In this document: piece after piece, positions 44,769 to 46,310 of the stretch
Numbering within the stretch: the stretch's first letter is position 1
Layout of the letters: each line of letters begins with the position of its first letter
Assembly (NCBI GenBank): GCA_018969485.1
Contig: JAGWYG010000002.1
Span: forward strand, 1 to 64,000
DNA length: 64,000 bases
DNA from: Chloroflexota bacterium
GTDB lineage: Bacteria; Chloroflexota; Chloroflexia; Chloroflexales; Roseiflexaceae
Reading direction: 5' to 3'
The notes under the pieces: model-generated
The model's input: the letters and a program-made list of their open reading frames with translations, nothing else
The model's database searches: none
What the model was told of the DNA's origin: nothing
Program-made: the position numbers and the translations under genes

Positions 44769-46310
44769 TCAGGACGTCACCGCGTGATGTGCGGGGGCGC
44801 GCAGCGTGCGCACGATGGCTACGAGCGCCGCCACCAGCGCCACGCCGAGTGCGGCGGCCGCACCCCACCAGGGGAGCCGGGCCCGATCGTCGGCGACGAT
44901 GCGAAACCCGATGTTCTGCTGCCGCACTGCAATCCGATGCGCCTGGCGGGATGCGCAGCCCGCCGTGACGCCCGGCGTGTCGAAACCACCGCCGCGCACA
45001 ACATCGTCGCCCCCGGCATCGACCCACTCCCACACATTGCCGACGAGGTCGTAGGCGCCTTCACGGCTGGCGCCGCCGGGCAGCCGGCCGACGGCGCCGG
45101 CATCGGCGGCATCGAGCGTGGCGCGGCTGGCGTCCGGCAGCATCGCCCCCCAGGGCTGCGGCTGCCCGTCGCTCGCACATGCCTGCTGCCATTCCGCCTC
45201 GCCCGGCAGCCGCCCGCCCGCCCAAGCCGCGTACTCACGGGCCTGGCGGATCGTGACGTAGACCACCGGCCACCCGGCGTAGGCCGGATCATCGATGCGC
45301 GTGGCATCGTACGGCCGCGTGCAGCCGCGCGCCGCCAGACACGCGGCATATTGCGCGTTGGTCACCTCGGTGCGCGCAATGCGAAACGCCGCCACGCCCG
45401 CGCTCGCCGGCACCTCGACCCAGCCATGATCGACCGCCGGCGCGAGCGCCTGGCTCAGGGCGAACGCCAGCATGACGCCGAGCACGCCCAGCAACACGAC
45501 CAGCGGCGCGACATTCGGACGCTTGATCCTCCGGGTGGAGTCGAGAGAGGGCTTGGTTGGTTCGTCAGGCAAGACGATCGTCGCCTTGCCGGCGGCACGC
45601 GGCAAGAGCTTCCGGAACGCGGCAACGTCCGCCGGGCGGTCATCGGGGCGCAACGCCAGGCCGGCGTCGATCGCAGCACGCCACGGTTCCGGGATTCGAT
45701 CACGGTCCAGCGGCTCGCCACCTGCCCGCTGGCTCGCCATCGGCGGCGGCCGGCCGGTCAGCACGTGGTAGAGCGTCGCGGCGAGGGCGTAGACATCAGA
45801 CCTGGCATCGAGTGACCCTTCAGGTGCATGATAGACAGTCGTCACGCGGCGCGGCACGCCGACGTCGAACAGGAGCAGCCCCCCGTCATCAGCCAGCCAC
45901 AGATTGGCCGGCCTGAGCTCGCCGTGCCACCGCGGCGGTTGCTGCCGGTGCAGGTATTCGAGCACATCGCACAGGGCCGCGGCATAGCGCGCAGCAGCAT
46001 TGGGCTCCGGCGGCGTGCCGTCACGGAGCCGATCGACCATCCGGCGGCCGCATACGTATGCGAAGACCAGATACTGCGATGATCCGACGACAAATGCCTC
46101 GATCATCCTGGGGAGGCTGGCATGGTGCAATGGCTCCAGATCCTGCCGCAGCGTCAGCGCCGACCAGCCGGCAGGCGGGTGATGAATCGCGTCGATGAAG
46201 ACCTCTGCGCCGGCAGGATCGTGCGCACGATACAATGCGGCACCACGCGATGTCTCGAGAACCTGATCAATCGTGTAGCGGCCGAGAGAATCGCCGGGAC
46301 CCGTCATCAT
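44769..46310 (-). CDS. Pseudokinase-formylglycine-generating-enzyme (SUMF1) domain fusion, membrane anchored
   Basis: A 513-residue fusion. Residues about 10-240 have the Ser/Thr-kinase fold (DVLEYLHRQQPPRWHGELRPANLWL, YHAPE, RSDVYALAATLYHVLTGRPP), but catalysis is lost: the ATP lysine site reads VFIDAI, HRD is HGE (129-131), DFG is FDVG (148-151), and there is no glycine-rich loop. A transmembrane helix lies at about 262-285. A SUMF1/FGE-type domain follows (about 290-470) with WVEVPASAGVAAFRIARTEV, GRLPGEAEWQQA and GNVWEW. A last helix is at about 480-503. Most bacterial SUMF1 domains of this kind are not true formylglycine formers, so the outer domain may be a ligand or carbohydrate binder. 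GGGAG precedes ATG 46310. Confidence 0.82.
   Translation of the reverse strand: MMTGPGDSLGRYTIDQVLETSRGAALYRAHDPAGAEVFIDAIHHPPAGWSALTLRQDLEPLHHASLPRMIEAFVVGSSQYLVFAYVCGRRMVDRLRDGTPPEPNAAARYAAALCDVLEYLHRQQPPRWHGELRPANLWLADDGGLLLFDVGVPRRVTTVYHAPEGSLDARSDVYALAATLYHVLTGRPPPMASQRAGGEPLDRDRIPEPWRAAIDAGLALRPDDRPADVAAFRKLLPRAAGKATIVLPDEPTKPSLDSTRRIKRPNVAPLVVLLGVLGVMLAFALSQALAPAVDHGWVEVPASAGVAAFRIARTEVTNAQYAACLAARGCTRPYDATRIDDPAYAGWPVVYVTIRQAREYAAWAGGRLPGEAEWQQACASDGQPQPWGAMLPDASRATLDAADAGAVGRLPGGASREGAYDLVGNVWEWVDAGGDDVVRGGGFDTPGVTAGCASRQAHRIAVRQQNIGFRIVADDRARLPWWGAAAALGVALVAALVAIVRTLRAPAHHAVTS

Follow-up and report, generated by a model that had tools for sequence, protein, structure and literature searches.

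The open reading frame P0001, located in the window (the whole stretch of DNA analysed here, 64,000 nucleotides long), codes for a kinase fold which has lost its glycine loop, β3 lysine, αC glutamate and HRD aspartate, and which is joined through a membrane helix to a domain of the formylglycine-enzyme (FGE/SUMF1) type. The losses in the N-lobe are shared with a syntenic ortholog of a congeneric species and this lobe is under purifying selection, and paralogs of the same architecture with intact catalytic residues are present in the same genome. Taken together, these observations would be best explained by a binding receptor with a non-catalytic kinase fold serving as co-receptor of its paralogs, a reading which, as a whole, we hold with a little less than even confidence.

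P0001 is an intact frame of 513 codons, read on the minus strand from 46310 to 44769, and a GGGAG sequence resembling a ribosome-binding site stands just 5′ of its start. The order kinase fold, membrane helix and FGE/SUMF1-like domain, proposed in the initial annotation, was recovered by Pfam and hydropathy analysis. The Pkinase profile matches residues 59-194 with 38.4 bits (cut-off 31.7) and the FGE-sulfatase profile residues 303-472 with 91.9 bits (cut-off 23.3), both matches being far above chance. The membrane helix of that annotation is found at residues 267-285, and hydropathy revealed a second one at residues 482-500 which had been overlooked, so that the FGE-like domain forms a loop between two helices. 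According to the positive-inside rule, the RRIKR sequence preceding the first helix and the RTLR sequence following the second suggest that both ends of the protein are inside, with the FGE-like domain outside the cytoplasm. The coordinates of these features and of those described below are collected in Table 1.

Table 1. Features of P0001 in the window, and FGE paralogs with DGR-like (diversity-generating retroelement-like) segments in the same genome (G000) and in the congener (G001), the latter given as contig:position.
Feature	Coordinates	Strand	Basis
Whole ORF P0001, 513 aa	44769..46310	-	ORF call and upstream GGGAG; GC3 0.80
Pseudokinase domain, residues 1-240 (about)	45591..46310	-	Pfam Pkinase, AlphaFold, Foldseek PknB/PknI
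Degenerate glycine-rich loop LETSRGAALYRA, residues 18-29	46224..46259	-	Alignment with intact relatives
β3 motif VFIDAI, residues 37-42, Lys to Asp40	46185..46202	-	Alignment
Catalytic loop HGELRPANL, residues 129-137, HRD to HGE, Asn136 kept	45900..45926	-	Alignment
DFG-position motif D149-V150-G151, Asp kept	45858..45866	-	Alignment
Shortened activation segment, D149 to E164	45819..45866	-	16 residues against 27 in C142, about 11 short
Transmembrane helix 1, residues 267-285, preceded by RRIKR	45456..45512	-	Hydropathy 2.71 over 19 residues
FGE/SUMF1-like (C-type-lectin-type) domain, residues 295-475 (about)	44886..45428	-	Pfam FGE-sulfatase, AlphaFold, Foldseek
Transmembrane helix 2, residues 482-500, followed by RTLR	44811..44867	-	Hydropathy 2.39; helix in AlphaFold model
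DGR-like FGE paralogs, G000	C142:19887, C115:3347, C90:38847, C90:40944, C21:156, C202:14369		Flanks and codon pattern
DGR-like FGE paralogs, G001	C115:2338, C359:202		Flanks and codon pattern

Structure prediction agreed with the retention of the kinase fold. The AlphaFold model of residues 1-262, whose input alignment was made of 34 kinases from viral contigs, is a confident bilobal fold (mean pLDDT 89.9, pTM 0.86); a first search of viral contigs with the P0001 kinase domain had given no match. In the Foldseek search, the nearest solved structures are two kinases of M. tuberculosis, PknB and PknI, together with the PknB of S. aureus (E 2.7e-16 for PknB). The model of residues 286-513 is weaker (pLDDT 74.7) and its Foldseek matches are FGE, CalU17, ToxD and EgtB, with TM values of about 0.5-0.6. 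Equivalog identities as LanL, EgtB or PknB were rejected, their scores being far below the NCBIfam cut-offs, as is that for MAD6 (43 bits against 460). In the comparison with known anti-phage defence kinases (PD-T4-6, MAD6 and PglW), PADLOC matches cover the kinase part alone, the best one being PD-T4-6 with 71 bits.

The catalytic motifs were read by aligning P0001 with about 30 kinase domains from its own genome, family and order, and a domain was considered as a pseudokinase when at least one of the β3 lysine, HRD aspartate and DFG aspartate is lost. By comparison with intact relatives, all three glycines of the glycine loop are lost in LETSRGAALYRA. The β3 lysine is replaced by Asp40 in the VFIDAI motif (one further alignment, A4, shifts the lysine column by one residue, to Ala41), and HRD is replaced by H129-G130-E131. 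These three alterations had been recognized in the initial annotation; two others are added here, namely the replacement of the αC glutamate by Leu54 and that of the Lys168-equivalent after HRD by Arg133. At the DFG position, the motif is indeed altered, to DVG, but the FDVG register given earlier is displaced, the alignment setting D149-V150-G151 at DFG. The earlier statement that every catalytic element is altered goes too far, the DFG aspartate (D149) and the catalytic-loop asparagine (N136) being retained. The activation segment, counted directly on both sequences from the DFG aspartate to the APE glutamate, contains 16 residues in P0001 and 27 in the paralog C142. In the whole N-terminal sequence, no lysine is found before residue 234, so that none could stand in for the lost one in the manner of WNK kinases. 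With the β3 lysine and the HRD aspartate lost and the DFG aspartate retained, the pseudokinase assignment stands, the glycine loop and the αC glutamate being lost as well, and P0001 very probably lacks normal kinase activity.

Since Asn136 and Asp149 are kept, nucleotide or metal binding by P0001 is still conceivable and may occur. The protein could then be a switch which binds nucleotide without phosphorylating, or a very weak non-canonical kinase, in which these two residues would bind metal and ATP would control the conformation; sequence is moreover an unreliable predictor of nucleotide binding by pseudokinases (PMC4718504). However, the loss of the glycine loop, of the β3 lysine (with an aspartate in its place) and of the αC glutamate, as well as the lack of any lysine before residue 234, make such a switch improbable.

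In the congener, the one further species of the genus examined, contig G001:C83 matches window 51266-46510 in its gene neighbourhood, with 77.6% identity over 4780 bases, and carries the first 123 codons of a syntenic P0001 ortholog. This contig stops before the catalytic loop, and the comparison covers the N-lobe portion, which is N-terminal to HGE, DVG and the activation segment. Within this portion, the glycine loop is likewise degenerate (LETSRDAALYRA), the β3 motif VLVDAI shows an aspartate at the lysine position as in P0001, a leucine also occupies the αC glutamate position and the DAIHHPPAGWS stretch is common to both proteins. The dN/dS ratio between the two sequences over these 123 codons is 0.26 (95% interval 0.14-0.42, codon resampling). 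The N-lobe of P0001 is under purifying selection and, since its losses are shared with the syntenic ortholog, the gene is not a decaying one. A functionless former receptor kinase in the course of decay would account for the degenerate motifs and would be one of several kinase-FGE paralogs; nevertheless, this explanation is very improbable in view of the intact 513-codon frame and FGE domain, of the N-lobe losses common to the congener at the syntenic site and of the dN/dS of 0.26 with its upper bound of 0.42. A class-wide search, covering 158 genomes with a threshold of E 1e-28, revealed no ortholog outside the genus, although more diverged ones would fall below this threshold; in G048 and G078, it matched kinase-FGE fusions whose motifs are intact. 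An ortholog search of the genome contigs yielded two distant FGE relatives only.

The initial annotation counted homologs with the same fusion and intact HRD and DFG residues against the pseudokinase reading, and in part these were found. Kinase-FGE fusions with intact lysine, HRD aspartate, asparagine and DFG aspartate are encoded by the same genome (C142, C16 and C125), by the congener (C495) and by G048, G033 and G078 elsewhere in the order; in one genus of family f3 (L020 and relatives), the fusion keeps these four residues with DLG at the DFG position. The kinase-FGE architecture as such is thus not that of a pseudokinase. The status of P0001 itself is unaffected, since its N-lobe losses are shared with the syntenic ortholog and lie in a region under purifying selection. 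The domain order is the same as that of P0001 in C142, C16, C125, G048, G033 and G078, and a membrane helix between the kinase and FGE domains is shared by C16, C125 and G033; over the full length, C16 and C125 are, respectively, 36% and 33% identical to P0001. In contrast to P0001, these relatives keep the four catalytic residues and a full activation segment, and hydropathy scanning revealed the second, C-terminal helix in none of those scanned.

The origin of P0001 was analysed with two kinase trees. When all columns were used, P0001 joined kinase-TM-WD40 pseudokinases distributed over the order with a support of 99/97. When the glycine-loop, lysine, HRD and activation-segment columns were omitted, together with the long branch of an SH3-pseudokinase, P0001 grouped with the kinase-FGE paralogs of its own genus with moderate support (80/91). 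Independent loss of the motifs seems to lie behind the first grouping, and the motif-free tree is, with moderate confidence, taken as the better estimate; descent from kinase-FGE paralogs also agrees with the identity of about 50% which the FGE domain shows to its counterparts elsewhere in the genome. The kinase domain might instead come from the WD40 pseudokinases, the FGE domain replacing the WD40 repeats, as the all-column tree indicated. This origin, which loses its support once the motif columns (and the SH3-pseudokinase row) are removed, is doubtful at best, given that no gene neighbourhood is common to the two and that the P0001 FGE domain resembles those of paralogs in its own genome. 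The WD40 pseudokinases themselves are proteins of about 1000 residues from several genera of the order (L123:2300-5350, L124:3055-6240, L125, L126, L127 and L128), in which the lysine is lost, HRD reads LGD and DFG is lost.

In the outer domain, the segment from GGGF to ASR (VVRGGGFDTPGVTAGCASR) contains a single cysteine, C452, and the catalytic pair equivalent to Cys336/Cys341 of human FGE is absent. P0001 has the FGE fold in common with FGE/SUMF1, which, unlike P0001, has the catalytic cysteine pair, and with SUMF2 (pFGE), which is among the closest solved relatives listed. SUMF2 is a human FGE paralog which is not known to have FGE activity. The genome of P0001 contains 37 FGE-sulfatase matches. 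The lack of catalytic cysteines and the membership of this 37-member family, some members of which carry DGR-like variable regions, favour ligand binding over catalysis as the probable role of the domain.

These variable regions were observed in at least six FGE paralogs of the genome and in two of the congener, all of which end in a segment with nearly identical DNA flanks. Within the variable segments, codon positions 1 and 2 vary and position 3 stays C or T. Such an NNC/NNT pattern combined with conserved flanks is the sequence signature of a diversity-generating retroelement (DGR) variable region. DGR-diversified proteins with kinase domains occur in cyanobacteria (PMC7517822), and C-type-lectin DGR targets of the FGE type in multicellular bacteria (PMC10907252); these sensors, bearing kinase or NTPase domains, join a ligand-binding domain to a signalling domain as P0001 does, and the FGE paralogs of its genome carry variable regions of their type. 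P0001 itself was rejected as a DGR target, since the NNY codon pattern and the matching flank are both absent from it. Neither a DGR reverse transcriptase nor a template repeat was detected in the two genomes, both of which are draft assemblies. The sole RVT_1 match of the P0001 genome (L100, on contig C161) was discarded as the DGR enzyme because it looks CRISPR-associated, Cas2-like and CARF-like frames adjoining it in a by-eye reading; the congener gave no RVT_1 match. The expansion of FGE domains with retroelement-like variable regions suggests a diversifying pressure on the sensor side. The contig carrying the intact kinase-FGE paralog C142 (G000:C142:20313-21695, L041) ends inside the FGE domain, exactly at RGGAF. 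A variable region would begin at this very point, so that the FGE domain joined to this active-looking kinase may be a diversified one.

From these data we propose that P0001 would be a two-helix membrane receptor whose FGE-like domain acts as the binding domain outside. Its cytoplasmic kinase fold would not transfer phosphate and would be retained as a protein-interaction module, the protein having presumably arisen among the active kinase-FGE receptors of its own genus. Once a ligand is bound or the proteins cluster outside, the pseudokinase would pack differently against the kinase domain of an active paralog inside. An extracellular binding event and a scaffold role, as put forward in the initial annotation, are what we infer for P0001. 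Co-occurrence and ancestry point to a partnership with the active paralogs, and P0001 could be their co-receptor or regulator, a role to which we give a confidence somewhat short of even. The neighbouring genes give no clue to the partner. P0001 is flanked by a GT4 glycosyltransferase and a HAS-barrel protein, the region also coding for a thioredoxin-TPR protein, an S49 peptidase, a LuxR-type regulator and a hydantoinase/oxoprolinase; the active kinase-FGE paralogs are on other contigs, hence there is no operon link.

By analogy with MviN, which recruits FhaA, P0001 could alternatively be a stand-alone receptor-scaffold with its own cytoplasmic partner, an FHA protein or another adaptor. Bacterial pseudokinases which span the membrane and have a shortened activation loop are known to act in this manner (PMC12599244), and the kinase fold of the P0001 AlphaFold model is intact. 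No adaptor gene is adjacent, however, the neighbours being those named above, and a simpler partner is offered by the paralogs sharing its architecture, whose kinases look active; we therefore consider the stand-alone scaffold unlikely, although less so than the nucleotide switch. P0001 resembles the ActPs3/MviN-type proteins by its activation-loop deletion and by a membrane helix after the kinase domain (PMC12599244). It differs from them by its FGE-like outer domain and by the retention of N136 and D149, the canonical catalytic motifs being completely lost in ActPs3/MviN, and MviN is not among the best 50 Foldseek matches listed for the kinase model. The EssB/YukC pseudokinase is likewise a membrane protein with a degraded glycine loop and a reduced activation loop (PMC12599244); unlike P0001, it is a component of type VII secretion without an FGE domain, and it does not appear among the Foldseek matches listed. 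A 2025 review of bacterial pseudokinase families makes no mention of FGE, formylglycine, SUMF1 or Chloroflexota, and a limited literature search returned no description of a pseudokinase combined with a SUMF1/FGE domain. Kinase-FGE fusions are a known class, of which further relatives were found in this analysis. Transmembrane bacterial pseudokinases are likewise already known, and it is the combination of both in P0001 which was not found described.

Returning to the co-receptor reading, active kinase-FGE receptors with retroelement-diversified outer domains might in this genus be paired with an invariant pseudokinase-FGE co-receptor. This extension is speculative and we regard it as highly unlikely; if true, such a pairing would be a bacterial counterpart of the pairs formed by receptors and pseudokinases in the immunity of animals and plants. 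The presence in one genome of P0001 and of active-looking paralogs of the same architecture would make the question of a dead-partner co-receptor for bacterial receptor kinases directly testable by pairwise interaction assays. Bacterial pseudokinases have been little studied, and the same genome contains a second degenerate kinase, the 543-residue open frame L122:1614-3242 (G000:C178), in which a bacterial SH3 domain and a hydrophobic stretch accompany a region matching Pkinase weakly, with 24 bits.
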